From Prostheceraeus crozeri (lineage: Eukaryota > Platyhelminthes > Polycladida > Euryleptidae), in NCBI GenBank assembly GCA_907163375.1, contig CAJQUW010009239.1:1038501-1102500 (forward strand): a DNA stretch of 64,000 nucleotides, given 5' to 3'. Under the pieces are notes generated by a model. That model had not been told where the DNA came from. It worked only from the letters and a program-made list of their open reading frames with translations, and ran no database searches. Positions within the stretch are counted from its first letter, which is position 1. Each line of letters begins with the position of its first letter. Shown here in pieces: positions 7,424 to 28,895 of the stretch. The position numbers and the translations under genes are program-made.

Positions 7424-7429
7424 GTCAGT

Positions 7430-9665: not shown

Positions 9666-10277
9666 ATGCCATTTACCACGATCATTCCTGTTTCAATTAT
9701 TCACAAAGACAATCTGTTTACTAGCAAAATTTTCTACTCTGCAAATGATGTTATTGGTTACAAAGCTGATCTCATAGATCTGATGGAGGATATTGTCACA
9801 ATCTACCATTGTGAAGATGATATTGAACTTCAGAAACTCTTAATGAGGACATTGACCAATGCCCTTACGCGAGTACTAAGATTTTGGCTAGATGAAGTGC
9901 TAATGCCTCTGAGTTTGACGGAAGCTATTCCACAGAGTTCTCGTTGCTATTGTGAAATGAGAACACGGAAATTGAAGACTTGTTTGCATGATATAATCGT
10001 ATTTAACCACTATGAGGAAAATGGTGGTAAATTCAAGGTGGACATGTTTACCGGACCCCCGTCGATGAGCGTCAATGTGGCAGTGCAAGATGACCGGGAC
10101 ATAATCAAGTTTAGAGCATCCTATGCTAATCTTTTAAAAGTCTTCGCTTCAAAACCATGCTGTTCATGCTGTCCTCTATCAAAGAATTTAATGTGTAATA
10201 TAGAACAGCTTATAACTGCAACGACTCAGACCTTGAGTGATGTTGATGACTGCGACCTACCATCTGTTACCGTTTGA
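9666..10277 (+). CDS. Uncharacterised 203-residue Polinton protein
   Basis: Open frame with its own TATA box. I do not recognise the family. The N-terminal 90 residues look helical (ADLIDLMEDIVTIYHCEDD, then LTNALTRVLRFWLDEVL). The middle is basic and Cys-rich (CYCEMRTRKLKTC), and the C-terminal third has a tight cysteine cluster (KPCCSCCPLSKNLMC), suggesting metal binding. There is no signal peptide and no clear membrane segment. It is intact in this otherwise decaying element and lies between the RING gene and a small basic gene, so it may be an accessory host-interaction or virion protein; that is inference. Confidence 0.7.
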   Translation: MPFTTIIPVSIIHKDNLFTSKIFYSANDVIGYKADLIDLMEDIVTIYHCEDDIELQKLLMRTLTNALTRVLRFWLDEVLMPLSLTEAIPQSSRCYCEMRTRKLKTCLHDIIVFNHYEENGGKFKVDMFTGPPSMSVNVAVQDDRDIIKFRASYANLLKVFASKPCCSCCPLSKNLMCNIEQLITATTQTLSDVDDCDLPSVTV

Positions 10278-10343
10278 CTTTGTTGCATGGAACTAAGCAA
10301 AAATGTATATTTTCATAAATGCTTTGCTTTTTACACAATAAAA

Positions 10344-10736
10344 ATGACTGCAAAACGAAAGGCATCTTTTTCTCGGAAGAATGGTGCTTTTAGACCTTCA
10401 AGTCAGTTTCAGAAGGCGTTGCTTAAGTTAAACGGCATGCGAAACAATAAAGTTAAGTGCAAATTAATTCAAAACTCAAGTGATGATTTCATCCGTGATT
10501 TGGCTTTTGCAATACGCAAATGCCTCCCAATATACAAGCCTTTATTGAGTACTGATTCTCTAAACAGCATTAGAAAATTTTCAAATCCAAGAAGCAGTGA
10601 TATGAAAAGGCGGAACTTAGTTCAGCGTAGAGGTGGTGGGTTTTTGAATATGTTGAATGATATTGGAAACAGCATTTACAATGTACTCAAAAGTCCACTA
10701 GGGAAATTTGTAGCAGGTGCCGCAGTGTTGCTGTAG
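10344..10736 (+). CDS. Small basic Polinton protein with GGG site and hydrophobic tail
   Basis: About 130 residues starting MTAKRKASFSR; an in-frame ATG at 10287 would add 19 residues, but the inner start gives the basic N-terminus I would expect of this protein type. Order of parts: Lys/Arg-rich head, a central helical segment (DDFIRDLAFAIRKCLP), a basic stretch ending NLVQRRGGGFLNML, then a short hydrophobic tail (SPLGKFVAGAAVLL). Proteins of this pattern recur in animal Polintons. The GGG is close to the kind of site cut by adenain proteases, so it may be a precursor whose hydrophobic end is released in the particle, as with adenovirus pVI. That parallel is inference. The frame is intact. 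Confidence 0.7.
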   Translation: MTAKRKASFSRKNGAFRPSSQFQKALLKLNGMRNNKVKCKLIQNSSDDFIRDLAFAIRKCLPIYKPLLSTDSLNSIRKFSNPRSSDMKRRNLVQRRGGGFLNMLNDIGNSIYNVLKSPLGKFVAGAAVLL

Positions 10737-10790
10737 ACGACGAATCATGGATTGACACGTCATCATTGATTGATGACTCATGTGAATATG

Positions 10791-10800
10791 TATATATAGG
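10791..10800 (+). promoter_or_regulatory. TATA box upstream of 10888
   Basis: TATATATAGG 88 bp before the ATG at 10888, preceded by ACGTCATC (CRE-like) at about 10767 and TGACTCA (AP-1-like) at about 10774. The arrangement resembles the promoter before 9666. Confidence 0.6.
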
Positions 10801-10887
10801 AGAGACGCGCTTGTACTCTTTAATCACTTTCAAGCTATCATTCATCGCTGACGGTTGAAAAGCTCCGAATAAGTACAACATTGAATT

Positions 10888-11639
10888 ATGTCTCAAAAAA
10901 TGTTTATAGTTAGAGAGGAGAGCGACTCATTTGAACGTGATCTCTTTAAATTCCGGCCGACAAGGAAGGTTCAAGGGATTGGAAATACCTTTTAGTTCCA
11001 AACGTTGAGCTATGGTGACGATGGTTTCTACCTTCAAGTTCCATTTTTCCACAGTAATGGTATGTCTTCATCTGGATATAGCAACATGAGACAAATGCGA
11101 GTAACCTTTCCGAAATGGCAGCAGATGACACTCAAAACCATCGACTCTTTGGCGAAGGAATGCGTTGTTGCCCGAAAGTGCTCCTACACATTGGAGGAAG
11201 GCGTTAGAGGAAGGAATTGGCTATTGGCTATAAGGAATTACCCGAGTTCGATACGCTATTCTTGAAATTGTCCGATCACTTTCAAGCATTCGATCTACTT
11301 AGAAATAAAATGGAGTGTGATGATCTGAAGCGCGGACGATACATGGGTTTAATACACGTCAACGGACTATACATTGGTGCTCACGGCTCAACCGGAAAAG
11401 TGGCATCGTTACAAATGAAAGTTCTACAGTTGGTTTATGAGCCAATGCGGATTGATAAGTGTCTAATCACCATCGACAAACCTACTTCAAAAGATGGGAG
11501 GGATGTTGAAGAATGGAAAAAGCGGGGACGGAAATCCAAGGAAGGGAGTGTTAAATTGAAATTGAAACGCCAAGATGCTCAAATTGACGCGAGAAGTTAT
11601 TTTAATGCTGACATTGATGAGGAAACACAAATGCTGTGA
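10888..11639 (+). pseudogene. Conserved-looking Polinton protein of unknown function, broken
   Basis: One reading frame runs from ATG 10888 but has an in-frame TAG about 36 codons in (near 10996). It continues in the same frame to about 11215, where it shifts -1 into the frame that ends at 11639. The parts read as one protein of about 250 residues: a short acidic/basic head (SFERDLFKFRPTRKVQG), a middle with FYLQVPFFHSNG and RVTFPKWQQMTLKTIDSL, then GRYMGLIHVNGLYIGAHG and a long Lys/Arg-rich tail (WKKRGRKSKEGSVKLKLKR). The beta-rich middle plus basic tail might suit nucleic-acid binding, but I do not recognise the family. A poly(A) signal AATAAA follows at 11666-11671. Confidence 0.65.
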
Positions 11640-11747
11640 ATGCGAAATGAAAGTTTCTAAATGTCAATAAAGTTGTTATGGAACATGACTTGTTTTATTC
11701 AAAGCAAACTGGTGGGTGTTGGTCGTTAAAGCTTTTGAAATTTCAGG

Positions 11748-12420
11748 ATGACAGATTTTCGCCTATTCACTGATCGCACAATGTGTGTGGCCGGACCAAG
11801 TCAGTCCGGTAAAACTACTTTTGTAACCCAAATACTACAATTTAGAAATGAGATGTTTAATAAAGAAATTAAAAGAGTTAAATGGTATTATGGTATATTT
11901 CAACCACAACTACATTCTGCACTTCGCCAGAAAGGTTATGATGTGAAGCAAGGGTTACCGACAACTGAAGACATCAAAGCAGGTGACTTAACTGAGCTAG
12001 ATGATCTATTGCGTGAAAGCAAATCATCGAAAGATGTAACTGAAATGTTTATTCAGACAGCACATCATAGGGAAGCCTTCATAATCTATATCACCCAAAA
12101 CATTTTTGATGGAGGGAAAGAGCAAAAAATAGGAGTTTGAATACACATTATTTGTCAATATTTAAAAATCCAAGAGACAGCAGTAGCATAGCAGCAGTAG
12201 CAGTAGCAGCAGAGACAGCAAATATATATATCATCTCAGTAGACAGATATTACCTCAACAACCTAAAGTTCTTTCAAAAATATATGAAGATGTAACTAAG
12301 AAACCACATGGATATCTATTTATTGATGTAACCCAGGAATGTCCGGAACGACTTCGATTTCGAACTAATATCATACCTAATTCCGTTGAACCAATGACAG
12401 TTTTGTCGGTTCACAGCTAG
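11748..12420 (+). pseudogene. FtsK/HerA-type genome-packaging ATPase, broken
   Basis: The motor that would pump the element's DNA into capsids. The open N-terminal piece (11748-12140) has Walker A GPSQSGKT at residues 16-23 and an acidic LDDLLRES segment near the expected Walker B, then FIIYITQNIF. The frame breaks at an A6 run (12124-12129); the -1 frame carries the next conserved block (LNTHYLSIFKNPRD). An AGC-rich tract follows, and the C-terminal block (KPHGYLFIDVTQ) lies in a further frame, ending with TAG at 12418-12420. At least two frameshifts and a simple-repeat expansion make it non-functional. Confidence 0.88.
12178..12222. repeat. AGC-rich microsatellite inside the ATPase gene
   Basis: Imperfect run of CAG/TAG/AGC triplets (GTAGCAGTAGCAGCAGAGACAGC) followed by a TA run. 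It replaces a segment that is normally unique sequence in this ATPase family. Confidence 0.75.
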
Positions 12421-12461
12421 TTTTAAGCAATATACTTTGTTGCCTTATTAGTATTACAAAC

Positions 12462-13112
12462 ATGTCGTATTCAAAGATGGTAGTCATTCCTCAAGAGGAG
12501 TATGTACAATTGACTACATTACAAAGTGCACAGGAAGTCAAAAATATAGATCAACCTATTACGAATCAACTTAAGGAACTCACACAAAAGGATATGGAAA
12601 TTCAGAAGATTAAGGATCCCTATCGACGAATGCAGTTAGCAGCTGAAATCATTGATGAGAGGCGACAGATTCGTGATAAGTTGCGACGATTTATAACCTT
12701 GTCAACACCTCGACCATATCGTGTGCGCGCTCAGCGATTATTTGACTTCATTGATCCACATGTGAAGTTCAATGAGAGAGGGGAGATAATAGATGAAACA
12801 ACTGGTGATGTTATTAGAAATAGTCACATAGATGACCTTCTACAATATGTTGTCAGAGATGTAAGGCGAAAACTAGGTGCACCACAAGGGTGGTCATATT
12901 TTCAGAAAATTTTATCTGATCAAAATGTGCCACACAATATTATTGGAGGACCGACTGTGAATGAGTTGGACAAGGGTCACTTACAAGATGGATCAAAATG
13001 TAAAACACCCACGATGGCGGTCAAGCGAGAGCTTCATGATCTCGATGATCTTCAACCAAAAAGAGCTACTAGGCGCTCAATGCGTGTTGGAAAGGATTAT
13101 AGTAAATATTAA
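12462..13112 (+). CDS. Conserved basic/helical Polinton protein, 216 residues
   Basis: Intact frame from ATG 12462. It opens MVVIPQEEYVQLTTLQSAQ, an N-terminus of a kind I associate with many animal Polinton proteins (xVLVPEHEYxxL), then has a charged helical region likely to form a coiled coil (KELTQKDMEIQKIKDPYRRM, EIIDERRQIRDKLRRF). The middle contains RLFDFIDPHVKFNERGEI, and the C-terminus is Lys/Arg-rich (PKRATRRSMRVGKDYSKY). The function is not established; the basic tail suggests a nucleic-acid or core-associated virion protein. It sits between ATPase and integrase. Confidence 0.7.
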   Translation: MSYSKMVVIPQEEYVQLTTLQSAQEVKNIDQPITNQLKELTQKDMEIQKIKDPYRRMQLAAEIIDERRQIRDKLRRFITLSTPRPYRVRAQRLFDFIDPHVKFNERGEIIDETTGDVIRNSHIDDLLQYVVRDVRRKLGAPQGWSYFQKILSDQNVPHNIIGGPTVNELDKGHLQDGSKCKTPTMAVKRELHDLDDLQPKRATRRSMRVGKDYSKY

Positions 13113-13216
13113 GCAAATATAAATTAAGCTTTGCTTCTCTCATATCATGTCGCTACAAAACTTTTGCTGCTGTTTGAAATCTGCGCTCGAAGGTAAAGGA
13201 GAAGAGGGCATAGAGG

Positions 13217-14366
13217 TTGATATCAATTGTGTTAGCAGTTGCTGTTCGAGTAATACGCGTGCAAATCAGAACAAAGACGATGAGTACAGCAGTGAAACTC
13301 AGAAAGATTTATTACGACTTAAATCACCCCGCAAGTTTCAGTCGTCCGGAGGTTCTAGCTCGTGCAGCAGGTGTGGGAATAGAGAAAGTCAAGAAGTGGT
13401 AAAGGAGTCAACCGACTTACACTCTTCACAAAAATGCGAGAAAGCGGTTTCCAACGAGAAAATATGTTGTTAACAATATAGATAGTCAATGGCAAGCGGA
13501 CTCGGCTGACATGCAACAGATATCACAGTATGGCTATAAATACATCTTAACCGTAATAGATATTTTATCTCGCTATGCTTGGGCACGTGCGCTGAAATCT
13601 AAACGAGGACCAGAAGTTGAAGCGGATTTTTCAGAGCATTTTCGATGAGGGGCGTGTTCCGCAAAGAATACAGACCGATCAAGAGAAGGAATTCGAAAAC
13701 TCTCATGTACGAAGTCTCCTTAAAAGTCATAGTGTGGAATTGTTTAGTGTCAAAAGTGCTTATAAAGCTGCCATGGTTGAGAGGTTCAATCGCACACTGA
13801 AGACAAAAATATGGCGCTATTTCACTGCAAAATATACACATGTTTGGGTAGGTGAGCTGCAGAAATTTGTTAAGAATTACAATGAAAGCTACCATTGAAT
13901 CATTAAGATGAAACCAGTTGATGTTACCCCAGATAATGCGATGGGTGTATGGCTTCGATTGTATGATAAGAAAGCGAAAAACATTTCCAATGAAAAGAAA
14001 ATTAATGTTGGTGATAGAGTTTGGATTTCAAAGGTTAAGTCTACATTTGAGAAGGGGTATCTACCTAATTGGACTGAAGAAGAGTTTTTTGTAGATGAAG
14101 TAAATACAAAATTTAGACCCACCATGTATAAATTAATAGATTACCATGGCAATCCAATTGAAGGAAAATTTGACTCTTATGAATTGCAAGTAGTACTAGA
14201 CAGAAGTGAAGAGGTGTATATGATTGACAAAATAATTAGGAGGAAAGGTCATGGCAATCAAAGGAAATATCTAGTTAAATGGAAAGGATATCCTGATTCA
14301 TTCAATAGCTGGATATCGCACCAGGATCTACAAAATGTGGACGTGGGAGACACTCGTAACTTTTAG
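13217..14366 (+). pseudogene. Retrovirus-like integrase (rve) with C-terminal chromodomain, broken
   Basis: Would insert the element into the chromosome. The N-terminal block KIYYDLNHPASFSRPEVLARAA is the typical Polinton integrase start (13217-13402). The catalytic Asp region follows near 13481 (SQWQADSADM...YILTVIDILSRYAWA), then QTDQEKEF (second Asp) and MVERFNRTLK (catalytic Glu) in 13617-13898, giving a D,D-E triad. A TGA at 13896-13898 interrupts the same frame, which reads on to 14366. The last ~45 residues form a chromodomain (EVYMIDKIIRRKG...KYLVKWKGYPDSFNSW). There are several frameshifts between 13400 and 13620. The overlapping Cys-rich frame at 13147 is a shadow in another frame. 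Confidence 0.9.
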
Positions 14367-14406
14367 GCTAATATAGCATGTGACTTCTTCCATATATGAG
14401 TTTAAC

Positions 14407-15969
14407 ATGTCTGCTAACTTCAACATCATTCTTCCAAGCAATAGCAACCCCAAGATATTTCCAAGTAACAAACCATCTCTATACTCTGTTGAATTCGCTA
14501 ATCCAATTACTCTGCATGGACCCCATGAAGTTGCTCTAACTTAAATTACTTATTACAACGATATCAGTTTGCTAAAGAACAACTATTTTGAATTACATAA
14601 AGAAGTGCGAGAGAAGGATGATTGCTTTCGCATATTTCAAAATAGTCTACATGGTACATGGGCTTTTCATCATCTAACTTTACATCCTTTTTCAACATTT
14701 TTACCATCTGTCCAAAACATGATTAAAATTCAAAAGGCATTTGCGACGTCAACTTTTGATTCTAAGGTTCCCACAATGAGCTTGCAAGATACAGAAAAGG
14801 AAATCGGTAGAATCTTTGAACAAATAAATGATCTCTTCAAGCCGACTTTGAATAAATTCTACAAACCAGTCATAAAGGGGTCAACAAAATTGATGAAGGA
14901 AAGGAAGCATGTTCTTCTTGCATTAGGTAAGGATTTGAGTCATACTTTTGGGTATTCCAGAACAACTTTCTAATCAAGGCATTGGTACAATGGACGTGGG
15001 TGGAATTCGGAGAGGAAAGTCACTGATTTTCAATGTAGAAATGTGCCATTGTAAAAAAGGAACATCCGAGTAAAACATTAATTTGAGGTCATTAGAAGTG
15101 TTGAAGACTTTGTAGGAAAGTTTCAAGGATCAGTGCCAGAAACGTTAATGACTTGTGAATATAAAAAAGAAAAAGTAACTTTATTTACTGTTGAAACGGA
15201 GGCAGAATTTATTGTTTTTACTAAAAAGACACCATTGGAAAAGTCTGATTCCGCTGTTATTGAATTCGGATCTGAAATGATTGGGATGTTTAAGGGCCTT
15301 GAAAACGCACCTTGGTTAACAGAGTTAAATGATACATTCAAGGTTCAATTGTCCTCTTCTAAACTCAAAGCATCAACAAATGCTTCATGGGATATCCACG
15401 TATAACGGGAAGACATATTGGGTGATGATTTGTCTACTTCCAGTGAACTTGTAAAAAGAGTTAATTTGAACATTGAAGGCTTGAAAATGCCATCTGAATT
15501 GTGTACAAAGTTAAATGAGTTTGGTGTAGATTACCTTGATGCAGATGAATAACACTTTTCTTATGATCCACATAAGAAACGCATGATTCTAAAGGTAGGG
15601 AAGAACTCTCTTATCAAGCTGGATAGCGTGTTAACGACCACATTGGGATTCTCAAAATCACCTATTTATGAAGTCACATTAATAGGCGATACAGCCCCAT
15701 CACTAGAACGTGATATAAGTAACTTATGCGTCTATTGTAACATTATTGAATATACAAGGGTTGGCGACATTGAGGCCCCACGTCTGCGCACATTTCCTCT
15801 CTCATCCGTGAGGAAGCAACTAATCAATCGAGAATTTATTAACACGATGTATGCACCAATGAGCAGAAATGTCATCAATAGAATTGATATATCAATTCAT
15901 GATGACACAGGTGAAGTAGTACCATTCTGTGGTGGTGCTACTGTTTTAACACTACACATCAGGACATGA
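14407..15969 (+). pseudogene. Polinton minor-capsid/PX-type protein with six in-frame TAA codons
   Basis: A single frame from ATG 14407 to TGA 15967-15969 (about 520 codons). It begins with FNIILPSNSNPKIFPSN and LYSVEFANPITLHG, a start shared with a conserved Polinton structural protein, and ends VYCNIIEYTRVGDIEAPRLR ... IDISIHDDTGEVVPF ... TLHIRT, which I associate with the C-terminus of the same family. The assignment as minor capsid (penton-like) is by family and by position just upstream of the capsid block. The frame never shifts, but it contains TAA at 14542, 14971, 15052, 15079, 15403 and 15550, so the copy is inactive unless read through. Confidence 0.75.
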
Positions 15970-16018
15970 GATTAAGGCTTTACGCTATTGTAGGATCTAT
16001 AATTATCCACAGGACATA

Positions 16019-16501
16019 ATGTCAGGCATTTACAGTGGTCCATCCTATCAGAGCGGCTATCCCGTGTTTGCTGGAGGTAGACGACAAGTTGGAGGAGGCA
16101 TATTCGGTGCACTAAGACCTATGGTTCTCCCAACACTCAAAAAAAATGGCGTACCATTCACGAAGCGGGTTGGAAACAGAGCTTTAGACTTTGGTGCAAA
16201 TGTTGCAGCTGATGCACTTCAAGGGGAGAATATCGGTGAATCCATGAAATTGCCTGCACACCAATCTGCCATAGACGCATACCATGATTTAACAAAGACG
16301 AGGCGTACAGTTCGGAAGAAACGTAGGAAGTCAAGACAAGTTGGATCAGTCCGAGTTACTAAGCAAAGGCCTAGGAGAAGTAAAAAGCCCACCAGAGCAG
16401 CACGTTCTAAATCAAGACGTCGTGTGAAAGCAAGAAAGCGCAAACGAAATTCCACAGCGACTGGAAACAAGTCAAAACAAAGGAAGACAACATATTTGTA
16501 A
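16019..16501 (+). CDS. Basic GG-motif Polinton virion protein, 160 residues
   Basis: Intact. Begins MSGIYSGPSYQSGYPVFAGG, has RRQVGGGIFGALRPMVLPTL (a GG site of the kind cut by adenain-like proteases), then a segment TKRVGNRALDFGANVAADAL. The last ~65 residues are extremely rich in Lys/Arg (RKKRRKSRQ ... RSKSRRRVKARKRKRN). This layout matches a small conserved Polinton protein encoded directly upstream of the major capsid gene and compared with adenovirus core/minor proteins. It is probably a DNA-binding core protein processed by the protease at 17791. The processing role is inference. Confidence 0.75.
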   Translation: MSGIYSGPSYQSGYPVFAGGRRQVGGGIFGALRPMVLPTLKKNGVPFTKRVGNRALDFGANVAADALQGENIGESMKLPAHQSAIDAYHDLTKTRRTVRKKRRKSRQVGSVRVTKQRPRRSKKPTRAARSKSRRRVKARKRKRNSTATGNKSKQRKTTYL

Positions 16502-16511
16502 AGCTAATACG

Positions 16512-17794
16512 ATGCAGAGTATCAATTCGGCTTTGTGTTTCTTTGATTCACCACCTCATCAAACTGACATTATTACCTCAACTATTGTAGACATAGTCCC
16601 CACAACAAATATCGATGGTAACCAACAGCCTATTCAGTTTGATATACCTGCTAATCCTCAAGATTATATTGACTGCCAATCAATTGATTTAGAATTGTGT
16701 ATACAAATTAAGAAGACTGATGGTACCAATATTGATTCAACTAAGGGTAAAGTGGGATTGACAAATCTTCCTATTGCCAGTCTATTCTCAGATGTGTATT
16801 TAATATTGAATGACAAACAGATTGAAGGAGGGGATCGAGCATATCCCTATGGAGCATACACAAATACAATGACGCAATTTCAGAAGCAAGCTAAACAGTC
16901 ACACTTGCAAGTTGCCGGCTGGTATGATGATCAGCAAGGGAAATTTGATGAGGTTTCAAATGGAGGTTTAAAAAACGAATGGAATTGACAGCAGATTCAA
17001 AGGAATTATGCTTGAAAGGACCTGTCTATCTTGATTTCCTTCGTCAATCTAGATATCTACTATCACAGGTTAAAATGCAAATAAAATTTATTCGTGCAAA
17101 TCCTGAGTTCGCGTTAATGGCTTTTGGAGCTACAAACTATCAAATCAACATAAGTAGTGCCGTGCTCAATGTAAGGAGAGTAACAATGAACCCGTCAGTC
17201 ATCAACGAGCATGCGACAGGATTGAGGAAAAGCAATGCAATATATCCAGTTAATCACAGTGTGTTAACAAACTTCACAATTGGTGCGGGATCATCCTCTC
17301 ATGCCTACCCAAATCTTTTTCCCACTGCGATGCCGAAGGCGGTGTTTATCACATTTGTGGAAAATGAGTCATTTATTGGTGCTTTTGAAAAGAATCCATT
17401 TAATTTTTAACACTTTAACGTTAGTAAACTAGCACTCTATCAGGATGGAAAATTTGTTGCTTGCAAAGCTTATGAGCCTAATTTTAAAGAGGGCAAATTT
17501 GCACCTGAATATGGTTCTACTTTCACTGCACTGAGCATGTTTAACACAGATGATTTGAATGGAATTACAATGGATATGTACAAGAATGGCTACTTCTTCA
17601 TTATATACAATCTTACAGTAGATGCAGATCTAGGCGGTGAAAGCGTAGGAGTTACGAAGCCTGGTAATCTACGACTAGAGGTGTCATTTGAGTCACCTTT
17701 GAAGAAAACAATTACTTGCCTCATTTATACTATCTATGATAGCAAAGTTGAAATAACGAGAATGCGAGACGTAACTGTCAGCTATCAGAGATGA
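16512..17794 (+). pseudogene. Major capsid protein (double jelly-roll), one frameshift and one stop
   Basis: Hexon-type shell protein. The first piece (16512-16988) has the typical N-terminal strand series (IDCQSIDLELCIQIKK, SLFSDVYLILNDKQIEGG, YPYGAYTNTM). The second (from about 16979) contains GPVYLDFLRQSRYLLSQV and ends with FEKNPFNF at a TAA (17408-17410). The same frame continues HFNVSKLALYQDGK, which normally follows directly in this family, through to TGA 17792-17794. The first break is a -1 shift at A AAA AAC (16970-16976). The stop codon overlaps the protease start in the sequence ATGA, a tight junction suggesting shared transcription of capsid and protease. Confidence 0.88.
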
Positions 17795-18252
17795 GTAACC
17801 TAAGCAACACCGAAATCTTGAGGAAAATGGGAAATGCTCATCCCTACTCCAAGTCAATATTTCTTGATGTCTTTTCTAGAGTCAATTTACCTAATTCAAT
17901 TCCTTTCTATCCTTGTTCGCTTATCATCAATAGGGACAGCAACAATCTTACTGGTAAACATTGGGTTGCAGTGTACATCAATCGCTATAAAGTGGCTGAA
18001 TATTTTGACTCTCTTAATCTACCTCGCTTACATGACATTGCACTATGGATGAATAGGTTCTCCTGGACGATTAAGAAAGTTACATCGTTTCCACTCCAAA
18101 GCAATGTATCTCTCATGTGCGGCGGTTATGTGCTATATTTCGTCAACGAGAGACCATTGAAAAATAACTGTAAAAGTGTTTTACAACTTTTTTCAAAAGA
18201 CTGCTATAAAAATGATGTAATTCTTACAAAGTATATTGAAATTGTTTTGTAA
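17791..18252 (+). CDS. Adenain-like cysteine protease, 153 residues, intact
   Basis: Processes virion precursor proteins at GG-type sites. All catalytic positions of the adenain/Ulp1 fold are present in order: His57 in GKHWVAVY, Asp73 in EYFDSL, Gln103 in PLQSN and Cys110 in MCGGYVLYF. The length is near that of other Polinton proteases. The start ATG overlaps the capsid stop by four bases (ATGA at 17791). The stop codon TAA overlaps a poly(A) signal AATAAA at about 18251-18257, so this is the last gene of the plus-strand block. It is one of the few core genes of this copy without a break. Confidence 0.93.
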   Translation: MSNLSNTEILRKMGNAHPYSKSIFLDVFSRVNLPNSIPFYPCSLIINRDSNNLTGKHWVAVYINRYKVAEYFDSLNLPRLHDIALWMNRFSWTIKKVTSFPLQSNVSLMCGGYVLYFVNERPLKNNCKSVLQLFSKDCYKNDVILTKYIEIVL

Positions 18253-18441
18253 TAAAGTTTTATTTTATATGTAAATATCCCTGTTTTATGTTCCAAATCG
18301 TTGGGTTTAGAGGGAAAGCAAACCATGTTTACATTTCAATATGTATTTACAAATGTACAGTTCTTTTCTAAATATTTACATAGCTACAATGTAGATTTCA
18401 CAAATATTTTTCTCAAATCACATAGGATGGGAGGAACATCA

Positions 18442-18908
18442 CACTAGACGAAATGACCTACTTAATCTTACTAAGGAAATCTTACAAGTTCTGACCAGAA
18501 AGTACCAGTCGTGCTAAGTCTTTTTAGCAAATCTGATTAGATCTAATAAGATCTTATTTGTGATTTTTAAAAAATCTTTTGAATAGAAAAAAGTCTTATA
18601 TTTTGCGTTAGTCTATATATATCCAGTGCGCCAATGATCCAGCAAGATCATTTAACAAGTAAAACCACTGATATCGTCTGATCTTCGCACTGTAATCGGA
18701 CTTCAAGTTTTAAATTTCAGTTCACTTTTTTAATTTCAATTATCAGCTGGTAAGATCTGAAAAGATCTTATTTTGCAAAATATAAGACTTAGTAAGTCTG
18801 GTACTTTCTGGTCAGGAAATGTAAGATCTTAAATAAAATAAGTTCTTATCAGACTTTGCAAGAATCTGATCAGACTTAATAAGACTTAGCAAGTCATTTC
18901 GTCTAGTG
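18442..18908. mobile_element. 467-bp non-autonomous CACTA (EnSpm)-like element
   Basis: The ends are inverted repeats CACTAGACGAAATGAC...; both outer ends start CACTA, the signature of the CACTA/EnSpm superfamily, and a CA dinucleotide flanks each side as a possible short target duplication. Inside are inverted subterminal copies of CTGACCAGAAAGTACCAG (18491-18508 and 18798-18815) and many AAGTCTTA/AAGATCTTA units, also typical of CACTA subterminal repeats. There is no coding capacity. It lies in the convergent gap of the Polinton and interrupts the 3' end of the minus-strand TBP-like gene. Confidence 0.75.
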
Positions 18909-19829
18909 CATTTATGTCTTTAATACCGGTTATCACAATCTTTCCATTATGGAATACATGAACATGATATGGGTGCCAGTTAGTCATCTGTGCTGCTGGA
19001 AATAGTTCCACTTCATAAGTGAGATTATTTGATGATGTGACTTTACGAAAGTCATAATGATAGTTCAATTCACATAGCACAGTCATTGTCTTCACTTCCC
19101 ATTCAGATAATGAGTCTCTAAGTAAATTTTCCAATGTAGAATGTAGATATGGTAGATCACCATCAGTGAAGCCACCAACACACTGAATTGTTCCATTTGG
19201 AAAGAATAGGATAGTCACATATTTATCCTTCCTCTGTAGAGGGTCTTCTCAGATGTAGATTCGTTGTCGGCTTCATCTTGTGTTTTATTAATAACCATTG
19301 CTTTCGATTGGAAATGTTGCGCTCGATTTCTTGAAGATTGAGTTTTGAGTTTACTTTTGTAGTTAACATGCGATTCACGACTTCCATCCGCTTGATGTCC
19401 TCCATCCTTAATGAATGAAATCATATGTGGTAGTATCTCTTTTGTAAAGTTTCTCCATGTGACGTCACTGAAACGGAAAAATCGATAGTCAATATCTTCC
19501 CTCTTTGGTGAACAGACGTATAGCTTGACGGTAGAGTCACACTTTATCCATACCTTTTGATCGAGTGGAATCTTCATCCGTGTCTTATGGTTGTCAATCA
19601 GATCAGCGAAGTCTTTCAGTGAAGATAATGCGTCAAGGCTAATGCATGCGCCACGATGTTTTCCACCACTATTTGTCATTAAGTGACGAAAGACTACTTT
19701 CTTAGAATTTGTTATGTGAATGCTTTGTGAGTCATTTAATTTCCATGTTCTAATGTAATGAGGCATGTTTTCAAATATAAACCTAAATTTATTTGTTTGC
19801 ATAAAGGTTGCTATTTTACATCTCAACAT
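18886..19829 (-). pseudogene. TATA-binding-protein-like gene of the Polinton, 3' end cut by transposon
   Basis: Two overlapping minus-strand frames (19829-19215 and 19218-18886) meet at about 19215-19235 and look like one gene with a -1 shift. The second frame matches the TBP core in order: ILFFPNGTIQCVGG (cf. the ALIFSSGKMVCTGA strand of lobe 1), a helix-like stretch, VKTMTVLCELNYHYDFR (cf. IQNMVGSCDVKFPI), TYEVELFP (cf. YEPELFPGL) and VHVFHNGKIVITGIK (cf. LIFVSGKVVLTGAK of lobe 2). The first ~200 residues are basic and unrecognised, with no convincing first half of lobe 1. The last codons (ALDEMTC, stop at 18886) lie inside the CACTA-like element inserted at 18442-18908, so the natural C-terminal helix is lost. 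Probable role: element-specific transcription initiation; inference from fold similarity. Confidence 0.7.
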
Positions 19830-20007
19830 ATCGGAATGATGTTGAGTGCTACGTCTTCAATTCATAGCAAGACTACCTATGTTTTAGTAATTATTTCTAC
19901 ACATCGGAAAATTGTAGAAATTTTATTTTATATTTAATCTACCTATATATTAGTAAGTATAACTACGCAGAAATGTAGTGATTGGTTAGTTTACTTTGTT
20001 AAATTTC

Positions 20008-23000
20008 TTAAACTTCTACGTCACCTGTAGCAGGAAGGCATCTCCTTTTCTTTGAAGGTGGGGGAAGACCTAAACTATAGTGTCCATATGGTAGAGATAG
20101 ATTTTCATTTAACCAACAGCGCTTATCCTCCCAAAGTGAAAGTCCTCGCTTTCTAAATGATTTTGTAGTGACTACGTGATTTTTTGAATTTATAATTGTC
20201 ATTTCCTCATTTGTATCTTTCTCACTGTAGTACTGCACAGTCCTATAATCATTATGATGTAATTTTTTAACTGCAGCTCTCTGCACTCCTTTTGCCCGCT
20301 TGATGCTATCACAAGTTGAATCTAAATATTTCATTGAATACATTTTTGGTTTTAGCAAGATCATTTCCTCAAGCAAGTTTCCCGAACACTCATCCTTAAA
20401 ACAACCTAATCTGGCTCTGTTTGTAGTTGAGTATAGTCGGTGATGACTGTCATAGTTTGAAAAGTCAAATTTTTCACCAAAATATAGCAGTACATCCTCC
20501 AGGCTGACAGATGGTGAGGTGTACAAACATAGGAAAAAACTATCGGTATCACCTCCACAAAGCCGCGTTCTATTTATCAGTGGACATCTTTTCAAATCAT
20601 TGTAGTATAACTGGTACATTTCCAATTTGCTATAGTCAAGTCCCGCCTGACCAACATAAATCAATTTATTCAACATTATTGAAGGTTTATACATTTCCAT
20701 ACCAACTAAATCTTCATCAAATATCTTATGCTGTACATATAGAGGATGGTTTCATAATTTTCGACATTATTCCACGCTGTTTACTAATTTGAATTTTCTC
20801 CTTCGTCTTACATTTTCCATTGTTTTACCACATAAATATTTATTTTTCAACTTATAAAATGACTTTTCAAAGTTGGTACTTGATTGAGCTCTCTTTTGTG
20901 AATTCATATCAATGTACGTTCTCAACCATGGCTTTTTTGTGAACTTTATACCGTTGTGAATTTCTGTGATTTTCATACCAATGGATAAATAGAATTTTAA
21001 TATTGAATAGTGTACAACATAATTTTCCCTATTGCATTGATGAAGCAAGAGTTTTTTAGTTGAACTGAATTTAGTGTCTGGTCTTATTGTCCTATGTAAA
21101 TCCTTCATATAAGTTGAGAACATATTTTGCTCTACGGTCTGCATCTCTGGCGCTAATGGGAAATCGGCAGTGTCATCATGTATGTTTGCAGGATATTCAA
21201 AGTTCAAATCAAAAATATAGCCAATTTCACCATCATCATCGATAGCTTGTATATTTTCTTCGTTTAGAAAATAACTTACTTCACTATCACTCAACCATTT
21301 AATATTTGAATGTGGTAGACTGTTACTGAGCGAAGAACCGTAAAGGTTATTGATATCAATGTAGGATAAGTGACGACTTTCATTTATATTATTTTGTAAT
21401 TCCGAAATGCGTGCACGTGCTCTGTGAATGTTCGTAAAAGTCATTCCACCCCTTATTCCCCTTTCGAAGAGATTATACATACTTTCATCTTGTATGTATT
21501 GTGGAGGATCATTAGATGTCAAATTTAAAGCTGAAGTAAAGCTAAGATGTGGAAGGCTAACGAAATGGACAGGATCTACTTCATCTTCACTTTGACTTAG
21601 TGACCTAAAAACTTCAAAAATATCTGCCAGTAATAATACATCTAGTTTCAAATATGCGAGCATGTAATCACCAAAGTTGTTACAATTGAAAGAAACCACG
21701 CATTACTAGCGTGCTCATATTCTTCATCTGAACAATGTTCACGAGTGAGATCATTATAAAATTCACATTGTGGTGGCAGACATTTTTCCAACAATGTATT
21801 TAGACTTTTGAAATAACGGTTGGGAAACACTCCCTTTTGATAAAGAATATCATCTGTTAACAGGGGAAATTCATTTCTTAGTTTTCTACATGTTCATAAA
21901 CTTGCAATCCTCTTGCTAACTCACTCAATGATGCACTTAAAAATTGATGAGAATCTAAGAATTTTAACTCAAAGTAGATTGTTTTTCATTTGTATTCGTT
22001 CACAGGGACGCTGGCGGATAGAGTTATATACTTTTCAGCTGTTGCTGCTACTACTTCCAATTTCCATGACTTCTTCTTTCCAATTGCTTTATAGCAAACG
22101 ATATGACTATCATAATTCTTAAAATTATGGAAGAAGATGGGTAGTTCCCGCCTAATTAGTTTTAATCGAAGATTGCATTTACTGCATATTGTTTGTCTAT
22201 ATCTTCCTGTTAAATGGTCGTGATCTCTTACCTTTATGCAATTATCACTAAATGCAGCTTTACATTTATTACAATTTTTTACATTTTTATGTTTTTCTTC
22301 TTCATCAGAAGAAAGAGACATTGGTTGCCGGCTTATTGCACGCTGATTATCATATACGTTTTGAGCTATATTTTCTAGGTGATCCAAGAAGTCCATAATA
22401 CAATTCTCTCCTTTGAAGACATAATATTTGCTTTCAAATCTGGACTGGAGAGCTTTATGCCAAACATGATAAACACCAACTGCTGCCGGTTTGTGTACTT
22501 TATTATCGATGTAGCACTCTATATCTGCATAAACAACTAAAGAAGGACTTAATTGATATTCCATGCTACTTGTACTTACCTCTAGTTGTTTAGGCATTCT
22601 TTCTATTTGTGCCTTTCCACGAACACAAAATTGATAATGTCGCTCCAAAGTTGTCTTATATGTAAACGATTGGGTACATCGATCGCAGAAATTTTTGTAT
22701 CTTCTATTTATTTTTCTATATAATCTTGATAGTTTTCTGATTCCACAATAGTGTGCACGTTCATTGTTTATAATTAGTAGTGTATTCACAGTTCGTTTAC
22801 CAATAAAGTTGCTGCTATATCGAACACCTTTTAATCCTTTTTCGTAAACGTGAATGTTGATTTTAATGTCATTATTTTTCTCTAACTTAGGAATATCTTT
22901 AATTGATACGGTTGTAGAGATGTCATTCATATTTAGTTCAGATGTCCATTTACTATATGATTTTATCTCATTCCTAGAATATGATACATCATTGTAATGT

Positions 23001-23909
23001 AGCATTGATAGAACTGAATACAAGAAACAGTCAGTTGCATTTGAATGTACATTAATTACAGCCTTTGAATCTTTCAGACTCTTTGGTAAATTAAATACTT
23101 CTCCACCAGAAAGTCGTGGACTAGTAATAACATTGAATTCTATATTTAGTATTTCATCTATAATCCAATTGCTACCCTTATTTGCAAAATCTTCAATATG
23201 ACTTGAGAGACTATTTAAGTTATCTTGGAACCATGTATCATAGTCATAAATAAAGTTTGTGGATGATGAAGTAAAGTGTGCGAGAAACGTTTCATCTTCC
23301 TGAGGATTTGATCGCACATAACGAATTTGTGCTACCAGACGACCACGTAGTTGAAAATTTTCTAGAAGGTTTGACACTAAGTTCTCTAATATAGATCGCA
23401 TACTTAATAAAAAGGAAGTCATATCTACTGTGTGTGCTGATGGTGTGATGTCGTATACACGAGCATGACCGTTGATGCGTGCTTTCGCTGAGACTTACAG
23501 TTCCATGATTATTTTGTATATTCATCTCACTATTAGTATTATGCATATTCATAGGCTGACGGAATTTGCTTATAGAATTATGCGTTTTACCACAGCGGGA
23601 GCAGCATTGCATAAAGATCAAACCATCATTTGAAGCGCTGATTGGTATATGTCTAGACGTTTGTTCAACAGTACTAGATTCAGGTATTTGACTATCATTA
23701 GCTGAGATACTTCGAAGATTTGAATTTAAATTACAATTACTTGGTTGCTTATCACAGACTAGATTGTGTCGCTTTAGATTATCCTGTCGCTTCGTTTCAT
23801 ATGGACACTTCCTACACTGATAAGTTTTTCCCAACTTACAAAACTTTTCATGACGTTGCAAATTGCTATTAAGAGTAAACGTTTTTCCACATTTAGAACA
23901 GACAACCAT
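20008..23909 (-). pseudogene. Protein-primed DNA polymerase B with N-terminal zinc fingers, broken
   Basis: Replicates the element's linear DNA. Pieces in order of translation: 23909-23292, two C2H2 fingers (CSKCGKTF...H..C and CRKCPYE...H..C); 23422-21986, a conserved Cys/His domain (Cys132, His224), another C2H2-like finger, Exo I YADIECY (Asp300, Glu302), an endonuclease VII-like zinc site (CNKC ... RDHDHLTGRYR ... CSKC) and Exo II FHNFKNYDSH; 21830-21648, the LPPQ/DEEYEHA spacer; 21699-20767, Exo III YLKLDVLLLAD, motif A YIDINNLYG and motif B KNKYLCGKTMENV; 20700-20008, motif C GGDTDSFF and the KxY-type LLKPKMYSM. Frame changes near 23.4-23.5, 21.8-22.0 and 21.7 kb, with TAA at 20767 and further stops at about 20752, make it inactive. 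Confidence 0.92.
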
Positions 23910-23944
23910 GTTTATTAAACTGGTGATGATTGTAATTTTTGCAG

Positions 23945-23982
23945 ACTATATATATATTTTTTTTCATCGTCCTATGACGTCA
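23945..23982 (-). promoter_or_regulatory. TATA box and CRE upstream of the polymerase gene
   Basis: On the minus strand a TATATATATAG run (plus 23947-23957) lies about 40 bp before the polymerase ATG at 23909, and a perfect palindromic CRE, TGACGTCA, sits at 23975-23982. The layout resembles the promoters at 9603 and 10791. Confidence 0.65.
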
Positions 23983-24094
23983 CAACTATTACTAGCCAAT
24001 GATATTTGTTCCAATCTATGATGAAATAAGAAGACAGGACTTCTAACAATTTTTTTTCCATTTGAAGTCAAAACAAAAAGTAAAAGTAAAAAGT

Positions 24095-26555
24095 TTACAT
24101 TTTCTGACACTTGACCCTGTCGCTGTGCGACAGTTTGACATGGTGGCACTGCTCACAGCAGTCGGTCGTGTCCTCCATGCGAAACAGCCTAACTCTTGTG
24201 ATGTCCCCATCACGAAACAATAAATGCATCAGCGTCTCACGCTCGAACTGATGACTACCTCTGGCTACAGAGGAAGACAATGGTAGGTTTGACTGTGTTA
24301 AATTTCTAACGGACACAATCAAACCCCTATTCTCCTCCCTGAGCTTACTTTCTCTCTCCTCAGCCATCTTCAGGCGTTGCTGGCACAGTTTCAACTTCTC
24401 CTCTAGCCGCTCATCATTCTCGATAGTATCATCTAGGTCGACATTATATTGTAAAGGAGCAGGAACAGAGACTGGAGCAGGAACAGGATCGGTGCAGGAG
24501 CAGGAACGGGAGCAGTAACAGGGACTGTAGCAGGAGAAGGATCAGGAAAGGGGACCGGAGTACGAGCAGGAGTTCGATATTGAAGGATCGGTGTAGGGGG
24601 CAGCCGAACGCTGCAATTTGGCGACGCACGGATCCGGGAGAATGAGATTTCTTGTGATGCGAAATCATACATATCCTGAAATGAGAAGAAATAATTGTTT
24701 ACTATCTATATATCCTTATACTATCTATATATCCTTGAAAATAGATATCACTGTTATAATTTTAGAACAGCATTTATCAAGAGAAATCATGAGATTTAGT
24801 TATTAATTATTAAGTTCGGTACTTACAAGGGAAGGCCTTGCTTCATCCTCATCAGAAGATGTGGTCGATGTTGAAGAGGACGAGTCGCTACTCTCGTCTG
24901 AATCATCCCTCTCATGGGATGAGGACTCCCGTATCGTGTACAGACGCTCCTCATTATCCTCAACGGAAGTGGTAGTCGCAGGTGTTGAGGCGACGCTATT
25001 AACCCTGGACTTTTTCAGGGATAAGGATCTCATTACCTGAAATGGTAGAAAAAGATACAAGGATAATTGAGCAAATGGATTATGTATGATGTATTAAGAA
25101 GTGGTGAGAGGAACTTATAATAACGACTATAACAACTGTACTTACGGGACGTGGGCTACTTGTTTCTTCTACCGCATTCATCTTGGGTACCGGTGGCAGA
25201 ATTTTAAACAGCTGTAAAGAGAAATAACATATTATTTTACATCAAAGGTGATTAATTTTTATCAACATGACTCACAGTTTTCACTTGAGGCAACTTTTTG
25301 ACAATCTTTGTCTTTTTCTTCGCTTGAGACCTCTGAAACTGAAATGTTTTTAAAAGTTAAATTTACTTCTTAACATTATTCATTTTTTATTTTAAATTTA
25401 GCATGTGCAGTTATCAGTACTCACCTCTAAATCACTGGATGAAGAGTCACTGTCCAGGAATTCTTTTGATCTGAATTTTCTTTTTGTTGGGGGTTTTGTA
25501 GGGGGTTCTGAGGGTTCGGCGCATTGGCTAAGAATTCCTTCTGCAGCCCTATCCTCCTTCGCGAAAAGTCAAGCCAATTTGTTTCTTTCAGCTTTCGATG
25601 TTAGGTTAAGTCCACCCCTGCCATTCTCCTGCGCACAGGATGCATGCCAGATGATGAAAGCTTTAGACTTTTCATCGTTGCCCATTTCTGTGCTTCGCAC
25701 GTAGGCTCTGCAGGTGAGGCAGTAGACATAAGTGCAGCCCTCCTTGAATTTACAGTCTTTATGGCTACGCTTGTTGGCATGTCGCACCGGTTGTTTGCAA
25801 GCTTCACGGTAGTGGAAAATTAATCGTTGGCGTGCAACGCTTGCATGACGAAGCATTTCTGTAAGTCATGGAAAACGTTTGCCATTACATTGTCTGTTAG
25901 CAAATATGAACTCATTTAAGTAACTATTGTATAAATATTGGAAAGTAATTCTACAGTCATTAATTTTCTGACAGAGATATATATTTTTCGAGATAGAAAC
26001 CGAAAGCCGAAATGTTGAATTTATCCTGAAAAGGGTTGTTTACATATGAACATGAAATTGAAATCAGCTGATGTATTATTATTTTATTTCGAAATGAAAT
26101 CATAGAAACGAAACTAATGTTTTAAAAAAGATAAACATCTGACTTTGGTTAAACAACTATTAATTTGTAAATGGTCCACAGACCATCACTTTGAAAACAA
26201 AATTAGCATTTGAATTATTTACAAATTTGAAGCACACTTTGGAAATGTTTATCTTTATTTAAACACTTCATCATATAAGCTTGTATGCTTTATAGGTTTT
26301 GACAATGCTATAATTGTTCATGAAAATTAATAATTCTGTTTAATAATATAACATATAGTGTTCCTAACTTAAGATCCAGCCACATGTTTTAAACTATCTG
26401 GTTATAAGAACTTAGTAATGTTACTACTCCCAAACTATATAAAGTAGTGAATAGAATAATGATGAACTCACTTCAGAATTGCAGTTATAAATCGATGAAA
26501 CGGAGAGACGGAGAACGAGGTCTGCTATGCACACAGAATAATTCAAAAATTAGTG
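24095..26555 (-). pseudogene. Spliced six-exon gene inside the Polinton, function unknown
   Basis: Minus-strand exons: non-coding 26472-~26555; 25425-25858 (ATG at 25856); 25276-25338; 25146-25211; 24827-25036; 24095-24675. Each intron has GTRAGT-type donors and CAG or TAG acceptors, and coding exons 3-5 are 63, 66 and 210 nt, all phase 0, so they join cleanly. The product has a Cys-rich N-terminus (CKFKEGCTYVYCLTCRAYV ... HASC, perhaps zinc-binding), Ser/Asp/Glu-rich low-complexity regions (DDSDESSDSSSSTSTTSSDE), a Pro-Val-Pro-Ala repeat region, a coiled-coil-like segment (KLKLCQQRLKMAEERESKLR) and a C-terminal CCEQCHH...C cluster. There is a TGA in coding exon 1 (25569) and a 1-nt slip within the Pro/Val repeat near 24.45 kb. 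No known family recognised. Confidence 0.65.
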
Positions 26556-26576
26556 AAGAACGGAGCTCTACAACTT

Positions 26577-26585
26577 CTTTATATA
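26577..26585 (-). promoter_or_regulatory. TATA box of the spliced gene
   Basis: TATATAAAG on the minus strand, about 30 bp before the proposed non-coding first exon. That exon ends at a GTGAGT donor (plus 26466-26471). The exon contains no ATG, and the first coding exon starts with an ATG two bases after its acceptor. Confidence 0.6.
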
Positions 26586-26946
26586 TGATTCTAACAAAGG
26601 AACCATGAACAAAGACCGGATGTCATCATAACATCACATTGGTATAGCAAAACAAACTGTTGAATTCAAACAAAACTAAACAGCTGATATATTTTAATGA
26701 TGAAATAGAAAAGTGCCATCCAAGTCTTTGATGCTAGAGTGGTACATGTAACCGCGAAGTTCAACCAATTAACATGTGATGAACATTGATTCCCTGCAGT
26801 TCTAAACATTTAAAAATTCTACTAAAGTTAAGGATTTCATATAATTTGAATTATCATCTAAATTCAAATAATAAAGAAAAAGCCATTAAGTTTTAAGGAG
26901 TTAAATCCAGACTGCATCATAAAACGCGCAAAAATCGAAATTCAAA

Positions 26947-26985
26947 TTTCGCGCCAAAATTCGAAATATCAAATTTCGCGCCAAA
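26947..26985. promoter_or_regulatory. Two E2F-type sites
   Basis: TTTCGCGCCAAA occurs twice, at 26947-26958 and 26974-26985, 27 bp apart. It matches the E2F consensus TTTSSCGC on either strand. Cell-cycle control of the element is possible but not shown. Confidence 0.45.
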
Positions 26986-27003
26986 TTTAAATTTAAAGAC
27001 ACC

Positions 27004-27069
27004 TAGGGTTAGGGCTAGGGTTAAGGTTAGGGTTGGGGTTAGGGTTAGGGTTAAGGTTAGGGTTAGGTT
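27004..27069 (+). repeat. TTAGGG-like telomeric tract
   Basis: About ten units of GGGTTA with variants (GGGCTA, GGTTAA, GGGTTGG). It is degenerate, so it is an interstitial tract rather than an active telomere. Confidence 0.85.
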
Positions 27070-27168
27070 CTAGTTATGCAAAAAAAAGAATAGCTATGGC
27101 ACCCGGAGCCGATGGGTAAATAAATTTTCGAGTGCGCGAGGCCCTTCCGCCGTGTATGAAGTATATGA

Positions 27169-27193
27169 AGGTCAAAGGTCAAGGTCAAGGTCA
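27169..27193 (+). repeat. AGGTCA direct-repeat array
   Basis: AAGGTCAAAGGTCAAGGTCA followed by AGGTCAT: four nuclear-receptor half-sites with 0-1 bp spacing. It may be a simple repeat or a binding array. Confidence 0.5.
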
Positions 27194-27300
27194 TGTGGAG
27201 GTCTATGCATTATGGTCATTTCGAGTGATCAAACTTTAACTTTGAAAATTTTAAAAAACTTGAAAACTTTGTTATTTTTGAGAAAAAACTTAGAATTTTT

Positions 27301-27630
27301 CCAGTTGCATACGTCTGCATACAACAAGGATTTTTTCATTGAATAGGTACATATGCTATATAATTCGAAAGCTCTTTTCATTTTGATTCCAATGATGTAT
27401 TGTATGCAATATGTATGACACCATCCGAAGCAGCTATAGCCCTCTGAAAGATAGGTAGAATTTAGTTGAGAAACTTAGAAATTTGAAATCATAAATTTTT
27501 CTTCCTGCATACACTTGCATACAACAGGAATTTCTTCATCGAATGGGTACATACCTTATATCATTAGAAAGGTCTTTTCATTCTCTAGCCAATGATGTAT
27601 TGTATGCAATATGTATGATATCATCCTAAG
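27301..27630. repeat. Two-copy direct repeat, period 200 bp
   Basis: 27301-27430 and 27501-27630 are about 80% identical (both contain CCAATGATGTATTGTATGCA and ATGTATGA). They are non-coding. Confidence 0.75.
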
Positions 27631-27955
27631 GTGAAAAAAAGCATTCAAAAAACACTGTAAATCTATTCAAACTTTCATCCAATTTGACTATCATTTGACA
27701 CAATTTGACTCAATTTGACACACATTAATATTTATTTCAAATTTGTTCTAGTATGTTCGGTGCTGTTTCAAAGTCTCAAACAAGTGATTTGAAATATATA
27801 TCTTCGAAATATTAAACTTAAAAATACTTATAGGTAGCTATTTCAGAGATGAATATATCTATCCCCAGTTCCCATTCAAATCCTATCAGAAATTCGATTT
27901 GTGAAATTATAAAACAAGATTGCTCATTTATGTAAGTGTTATTAAAGATAAAAAA

Positions 27956-28360
27956 TTACAAATTGTCAATATTGGGGAAAGGAATCAGTCTCTTCTGGTC
28001 AACTCGAACACATACTCTTGTCTTTTTGGGGGCACCAGGGCAGCGGCGAGGCGTGGCAGGATCCATTATGCTGAACTCCAGCGCAGTTGTTAAATTCTTT
28101 TCTTCAGGCTCTAATCGCACACATATCCGCTTCATGTTTGTTTTTCGTGGAGCATTTCGAACCTGACTTCCGCGTGTCTTGACTGTTATAAGAGCTTCCA
28201 CCGGTGTTTCGATGATACTCCTCTGTAGTACCAAACTTTCATCTTCTGATGATTCTGGATCAGGAGTTACAGGTCCTCTTACGAACACTCTGGGTTCGCA
28301 TGGCGATTCCGTCCTTTCAACAGGAGAAGTGGGAGGTGCTGTGATACGTTCCATTTTCAA
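27956..28360 (-). CDS. Pro-rich 134-residue protein with an internal repeat, unknown function
   Basis: Open minus-strand frame from ATG 28360 (a second Met is two codons later) with its own TATA box. The N-terminal half is rich in Pro, Ser, Thr and acidic residues with several TP/SP sites (TSPVERTESP, VTPDPESSEDES), likely disordered. The C-terminal half contains two related basic units, APRKTNMKRICVRL (from residue 70) and APKKTRVCVRV (from residue 110), which may be peptide-binding motifs. No family recognised. It is divergent to the gene at 28602, with about 240 bp shared between their start codons. The frame is intact and it is probably an accessory early gene; the latter is inference. 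Confidence 0.6.
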   Translation of the reverse strand: MKMERITAPPTSPVERTESPCEPRVFVRGPVTPDPESSEDESLVLQRSIIETPVEALITVKTRGSQVRNAPRKTNMKRICVRLEPEEKNLTTALEFSIMDPATPRRCPGAPKKTRVCVRVDQKRLIPFPNIDNL

Positions 28361-28443
28361 TGTAATTAGAATAATATAGATAAGACAGCTGATAATATGG
28401 TACTTGAGGATTAGAACCTTTGATGAGAATTAGTGCACAGCAA

Positions 28444-28455
28444 GGACTTATATAC
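28444..28455 (-). promoter_or_regulatory. TATA box of the 27956-28360 gene
   Basis: GTATATAAGTCC on the minus strand, 84 bp before the ATG at 28360. Confidence 0.6.
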
Positions 28456-28515
28456 TTTTTAAACAAAGGAATTCCCAACAGCCAACCAGAGAGGTTCCGA
28501 TTTTCCCTAAAGGAA

Positions 28516-28524
28516 TATATAAGG
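28516..28524 (+). promoter_or_regulatory. TATA box of the 28602 gene
   Basis: TATATAAGG on the plus strand, about 78 bp before ATG 28602; identical to the box at 9603. With 28444-28455 it forms a divergent promoter pair. Confidence 0.6.
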
Positions 28525-28601
28525 ATGTCATTGTTCCAATTAAGCAAGTTCTAATCCTCGTGACTTGAGTAGACATTAAGAATCTATTACGAATCTATTT
28601 C

Positions 28602-28895
28602 ATGATGAGTACCCAGAAACAACTGTTCTGTTACCAAAATGAAAGCCAACTAATTATGGGTGGAGCGTTGGATACGAATGCTAATTTGTGTTGCGGATGC
28701 AAGGTGGAACTCTGGAAAACGCTGATAGTGACAGCACTCCAAAGGAGAAAAGGACTGTCGGCGAAGTGTCCTATACACGAGTGTGAACACGACTTCACAA
28801 ACAATGCAACATTCCTCGAATGGGCCGAGGACTTCTTGAAGTTAACGGAATCCCCCGAGGGACGTGACTTACCTTCTTTCATTTTTTATGATTAA
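28602..28895 (+). CDS. Small Cys/His-rich protein, 97 residues, unknown function
   Basis: Open frame starting MMSTQKQLF with its own TATA box. It has CCGCKVELW at residues 30-38 and KCPIHECEHDF further on, giving a C-x-C ... C-x2-H-x-C-x-H arrangement that could bind one zinc ion. It ends with an acidic helical tail (LEWAEDFLKLTESPEG). No family recognised. It is the outermost gene at the right end, mirroring the RING gene at the left end. AATAAA-type sequences follow at about 29010-29020, just before the right terminal repeat. Confidence 0.6.
   Translation: MMSTQKQLFCYQNESQLIMGGALDTNANLCCGCKVELWKTLIVTALQRRKGLSAKCPIHECEHDFTNNATFLEWAEDFLKLTESPEGRDLPSFIFYD

Follow-up and report, generated by a model that had tools for sequence, protein, structure and literature searches.

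TATA-binding protein (TBP) is the platform for the start of nearly all eukaryotic transcription. Versions or mimics of it are encoded by giant viruses, mirusviruses and herpesviruses; in the literature searched, none has been reported from an integrated element of about 20 kb. TBP is among the functions listed for mirusviruses (PMC10132985), and TATA-binding proteins have been described in endogenous elements whose putative origin lies in mirusviruses, within a genome that also contains Polinton-like viruses (PMC10675990). Known viral TBPs keep the glutamate at position C.L3.2 in only about 40% of cases and are almost all paired with a viral TFIIB-like protein; such TBPs, it has been suggested, use a TFIIB of their own (PMC7221094). 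The vTBP of beta- and gamma-herpesviruses--ORF24 in Kaposi's sarcoma-associated herpesvirus (KSHV) and BcRF1 in Epstein-Barr virus (EBV)--replaces TBP at viral late promoters (PMC4893493, PMC12529657), and KSHV ORF24, which is without the TFIIB-contacting glutamates, binds RNA polymerase II directly (PMC12529657). Here a TBP gene is described within a Polinton (Maverick) element of the flatworm Prostheceraeus crozeri, a decayed copy of which lies in a 64,000-nucleotide stretch of contig CAJQUW010009239.1 (positions 1,038,501 to 1,102,500; this whole stretch is referred to below as the window).

A preliminary description of the window, made from its letters, had proposed that a minus-strand frame next to the family B DNA polymerase (PolB) encodes a TBP-like factor, and profile matches bear this out with high significance. 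The 110-aa frame at 19218-18886 scores 39 bits (E = 7.3e-10) with the Pfam TBP family (PF00352), whose cut-off is 22.9; against solved TBPs the window sequence alone gives a best E of 9e-5 and a 22-sequence profile a best E of 6.7e-24, at an identity of about 15-22% for TBPs of this Polinton type. Every one of the 25 members of the corresponding TBP alignment (A1) matches PF00352 at E <= 0.01. For P0020, a full-length relative, modelling predicts the two-lobe saddle, as had been anticipated, and the siblings of the window copy are two-lobed by sequence. All four of the strand and turn motifs that had been quoted are present in the 110-aa frame, which corresponds to lobe 2 and only the latter half of lobe 1; the initial half of that lobe lies outside, in another frame (Table 1). 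That the window frame belongs to a genuine two-lobe TBP homologue is thus confirmed, and TBP is a standing gene in several Polinton families of this genome.

The 110-aa frame itself is most of a broken TBP gene. When aligned with three sibling copies, the window copy exhibits a 17-base deletion within lobe 1, and therefore a frame shift by which the first half of that lobe is cut off; from about position 18900 onward its 3' end cannot be aligned with these siblings, unrelated sequence standing in its place, and the last residues of the open reading frame (ORF) derive from this sequence. The GTG at 19218 is merely the first start codon in the ORF listing, most scored siblings being open for 194 codons from stop to stop. 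Beside the truncated 3' end, at 18479-18827, is a short pair of inverted repeats (44 nt, 86%), which may mark a small insertion that took the place of the gene's end.

The genome (2.05 Gb in 14,165 contigs) was searched both with the window family and with the Pfam TBP model. In the former search all 150 places scored, one of which is the window's own, match the full query, nearly all of the others at 93-94% identity; the counts are minimum values, scoring having covered 150 of 10,069 candidates. In the latter, 150 of 10,983 candidates were scored, all above the cut-off; four of these are exons of the host TBP and of a host TBP-like gene, which leaves 146. The two lists appear disjoint by eye, for a combined total of at least 296 scored TBP-like element loci (146 + 150)--a sign of massive recent Polinton expansion in this genome. 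Many of these 296 loci are near-identical in protein. Eight loci, belonging by sequence to four families other than that of the window, were inspected over 10 kb: PolB is present at all eight, and a capsid-like gene, an integrase and a protease convergent with TBP at six, so that the neighborhood noted in the window does recur in other Polintons. In a larger set of 30 loci (ten of the window family, including the window's own, and 20 picked for variety from both searches) the convergent protease was found at 20, and at all 30 TBP is preceded, on its own strand, by a gene termed here ORF1. No Polinton devoid of TBP was found among the loci examined, all of which were reached through TBP.

The minus-strand frame 19829-19215, which the preliminary description had assigned to TBP, is this separate gene: ORF1 is PUR-like by predicted fold and is not the TBP N-terminus. 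It has 16 homologues; for a relative (P0135) a structural model and fold search predict tandem PUR repeats, with confidence over residues 13-138; the Foldseek match to PUR-alpha has an E of only 2e-3 at about 6% identity, and by sequence no match to the PUR family was found in a Pfam scan of 17 ORF1 members (E <= 1) or among PDB sequences. In the 234-codon family, what appears by eye to be a second, tandem ORF1-like sequence lies upstream of ORF1 (L014, 5335-5708; L015, 4224-4571).

In nine copies read, from five families or subfamilies, TBP overlaps ORF1 by 65-112 codons and always in the same shifted frame, and at three loci (L015, L044 and L050) stretches of ORF1 and TBP lie within one open frame. 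Such an arrangement might be expected of a single PUR-TBP fusion protein produced by programmed frameshifting. Set against this, the TBP frames of database relatives (77-189 aa) are separate from the ORF1 frames (133-199 aa), and the three joined loci may be just mutated copies; a fusion is accordingly viewed as unlikely, and the two are treated here as overlapping genes.

Which residues the Polinton-type TBPs conserve was determined from 112 proteins, each 150 aa or longer, of which 68 bearing the motifs of a second group (group C, discussed below) were set aside; the 44 remaining rows comprise four from this genome for which Polinton context was seen and 40 database proteins grouped by sequence (the grouping of one, P0126, being doubtful). 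Residue numbers are those of yeast TBP. Conserved are F116 (44/44), F190 (44/44), F207 (43/44), T215 (44/44) and N69 (39/39), whereas F99 is a proline in 40 of 43 rows, so that three of the four intercalating phenylalanines are kept; some accepted TBPs likewise have three (PMC5825884). N159 is kept in 35 of 43 rows, and the window family also differs at V122, T124, N159, V161 and L205. The glutamates at positions C.L3.2 and C.L3.4, which correspond to human E284 and E286 and which touch TFIIB (PMC7221094), are kept in 42 and 43 of the 44 rows, respectively.

The best explanation for these observations as a whole, to which we assign a probability of about 0.68, is that this is a two-lobe TBP gene of Polintons whose product, its DNA preference altered, recruits host TFIIB and RNA polymerase II to promoters of the element. 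In the nucleus, the element TBP would bind and bend AT-rich element promoters by means of its conserved minor-groove residues; its conserved glutamate stirrup would be presented to host TFIIB, and host RNA polymerase II would thereby be recruited to element genes; the replacement of F99 by proline, together with the other groove replacements, would shift promoter preference away from host TATA boxes; and single-stranded DNA at promoters or origins may be opened or held with the aid of the PUR-like partner. We infer the use of host TFIIB and polymerase because the glutamates are kept here, as against about 40% in viral TBPs and their absence from ORF24. No RNA polymerase gene was detected in the element, and a Pfam scan of 21 window ORFs (in a decayed copy, with small ORFs left out) found no TFIIB homologue. 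What has been computed is homology, predicted fold, genomic position and purifying selection between subfamilies, and the steps of the mechanism are deduced from these. Homology, fold and context support the earlier suggestion that an initiation factor of its own may come with the element. The window copy would itself no longer be able to act, because its TBP gene is broken.

The conserved TFIIB-contact glutamates and several conserved groove residues, along with the lack of a TFIIB homologue among the scanned ORFs, would also suit a protein directed at the host--one that depletes host TFIIB by titration, or that sits on the TATA boxes of the host, so that host genes are shut down or reprogrammed. 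The replacement of F99 and the additional differences in the window family, however, point to an altered rather than a host-like DNA preference, and the gene is tied to ORF1 at all 30 loci; this possibility therefore appears rather improbable. Much the same improbability attaches to a role for the TBP fold and its PUR-like neighbor in replication or packaging, either by bending the terminal repeats or by covering single-stranded intermediates. Single-strand binding is a property of the PUR, Whirly and PC4 folds, and in the window family both genes adjoin PolB on its strand; at two of the eight loci (L012 and L016), however, TBP and PolB are on opposite strands, and we know of no replication role for conserved TFIIB-contact glutamates.

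Fourteen pairs of copies were compared: between subfamilies L047 and L051 dN is 0.121 and dS 0.433 (ratio 0.28), and over the whole gene the ratio is 0.24-0.34 in the eight pairs with dS >= 0.13, several of which are near or beyond saturation. The element TBP is thus under purifying selection between subfamilies. A tree of 68 rows places 42 of them, among which are the four families of this genome that it contained, on one side of a branch with support of 100/99, and cellular TBPs and the more canonical group C on the other (most group-C rows having been dropped beforehand, and the program having flagged long branches that meet at this split). That a host TBP was captured by chance and rides as a functionless passenger, as the broken window copy and the six of 30 TBP frames read that are cut short or lack a part might suggest, is very hard to reconcile with this separation from host TBP, with the constraint between subfamilies and with the presence of TBP in several families.

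Several points weigh against recruitment of host TFIIB and polymerase to element promoters. Only four of the 44 rows used for residue counts come from loci with observed Polinton context; TATA affinity may be weak, because F99 is a proline in most rows and N159 is kept in only 35 of 43; and the six closer pairs have dN/dS ratios of 0.39-0.99, which fits decaying copies but also a dispensable gene. In the window element, three ORFs presumed to be leading ones are each preceded, at a distance of 47-94 nt, by a TATA-like octamer (the pattern has 22 matches in the element, for which a chance expectation was not computed), yet in the other families looked at no such octamer occurs close before PolB, and no shared promoter motif emerged.

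Among the members of group C are proteins that by name belong to Mercenaria and to metagenome-assembled genomes of Sedimenticola and Thiodiazotropha, the latter presumably being clam-symbiont assemblies containing host DNA. A scan of a genome-contig collection with the group-C alignment revealed no relatives. Nor were relatives found in a viral-contig collection queried with TBP alignments (window ORF, A1, groups C and B) and with the capsid-like, PolB and ORF1 sequences; as regards TBP this says little, because the PolB and capsid-like queries came back empty too, and the collection seems to be without such elements. Two Mercenaria proteins of group C (P0096 and P0102) are related to element TBPs, and one is annotated 'TATA-box-binding protein-like 1', an annotation that may mislabel element genes as host genes; database entries named 'TBP-like 1' should be read with this in mind. 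More broadly, we would give even odds to there being an old and diverse Polinton lineage, probably of animals, with its own promoter module (TBP and a PUR-like protein, encoded by overlapping genes) that uses host TFIIB and polymerase II on different promoters, the group-C TBPs of clams and other sources constituting a second lineage.

The remainder of the element (Table 1) is Polinton-like. Its terminal inverted repeat (TIR) arms are 97-100% complementary and are flanked by an exact, Polinton-like 6-bp duplication (8710-8715 and 29413-29418); it is deemed a decayed copy because PolB and the integrase are each split into several ORFs. PolB motifs A, B and C were found in the window and in relatives; the N-terminal part of the PolB region matches Endonuclease_7 (endonuclease VII-like, E = 4.7e-6) and a zf-C2H2 zinc finger in Pfam, and the polymerase domain itself matches no Pfam, PHROG or PDB model. 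Homologues from other loci help in part: the integrase of L014 matches rve (E = 1.9e-10) and a chromodomain, both above cut-off; its protease matches Peptidase_C48 and adenovirus endoprotease, both below cut-off; and the L017 counterpart of the packaging ATPase fragment matches AAA_14 (E = 1.1e-3), also below cut-off. The capsid-like gene, putatively that of a major capsid protein, has no Pfam or PDB match. Near the right end are an ORF at 27956-28360 (minus strand; no Pfam match), preceded by a TATA-like octamer at 28454, and about 10.7 copies of the telomere-like repeat TAGGGT (27004-27067). Just to the left of the element, at 6289-7429, is a large imperfect palindrome (arms of 212, 116 and 61 nt; 89-98% complementarity).

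Table 1. Features of the Polinton copy in the window (positions are those of the window).
Feature	Position	Strand	Remarks
Polinton/Maverick element, 20.7 kb, decayed copy	8716..29412		TIR arms and 6-bp duplication
Left terminal inverted repeat	8716..8977
TATA-like octamer (putative)	9603..9610	+	TATAWAWR; 63 nt before first left-end ORF (9666)
Putative packaging ATPase fragment	11748..12140	+	P-loop matches below cut-offs
Retroviral-type integrase fragments, C-terminal chromodomain	13617..14366	+	rve E 9.5e-4 (below cut-off); Chromo E 4e-10
Major-capsid-like gene, two ORFs	16512..17410	+	Homologues in other families, 36-51% identity
Putative cysteine protease	17791..18252	+	Convergent with TBP gene; weak Peptidase_C48 match, below Pfam cut-off
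TBP-like gene, second half of lobe 1 and lobe 2	18886..19248	-	Pfam TBP; 19248-18889 open; 110-aa ORF is main part
TBP-like gene, first half of lobe 1	19250..19405	-	Frame other than that of 19218-18886; overlaps ORF1; aligns with sibling frame starts
ORF1, 204 aa	19215..19829	-	PUR-alpha-like double repeat predicted at ~19766-19389, then disordered tail overlapping TBP frame
PolB region, split into several ORFs	20008..23909	-	Motifs A, B, C
TATA-like octamer (putative)	23949..23956	-	TATAWAWR; 47 nt before first ORF of PolB region (23909)
Right terminal inverted repeat	29039..29412		Interrupted by 36-bp tandem repeat (3.6 copies, 29245-29377)

If the protein works as proposed, Polinton genes could be turned on without reliance on host TFIID or the factors that regulate it, which bears on how these elements escape silencing; they would also offer a small natural system in which an alternative TBP still uses host TFIIB. 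TBP furthermore provides a sequence handle for Polinton classification. On the same condition, no smaller DNA element of eukaryotes that possesses its own general factor for transcription initiation may, to our knowledge, exist than the TBP-bearing Polintons.

With described Polintons/Mavericks and adintoviruses the element shares TIRs, a 6-bp duplication, PolB motifs, a chromodomain-bearing integrase, a putative protease and capsid-like genes; we know of no Polinton gene set that includes either a TBP or a PUR-like gene. A literature search on Polintons or Mavericks and TBP, which covered adintovirus and nematode Polinton work only in part and did not extend to PUR, turned up no description of such a gene; 'TATA', 'TBP' and 'transcription factor' were not found in PMC11071308, nor were 'TATA' and 'TBP' in PMC11071296 and PMC10120064. 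With eukaryotic and archaeal TBPs the protein shares the two-lobe fold, the YExELFP stirrup and the conserved residues F116, F190, F207, T215 and N69; it differs from them in the replacement of F99 by proline and in being encoded within a mobile element, beside a PUR-like gene. Like the TBPs of giant viruses, asfarviruses and mirusviruses it is virus-encoded in character, and its best match in BFVD is a named giant-virus TBP (E = 6e-11); unlike that type, it has both glutamates nearly invariant, and no TFIIB accompanies it in the ORFs scanned. In contrast to the herpesvirus vTBP, it is a compact, full TBP in which the TFIIB-contact glutamates are present. A known protein family and a known class of element thus occur here in an apparently new combination, together with an apparently new partner gene.
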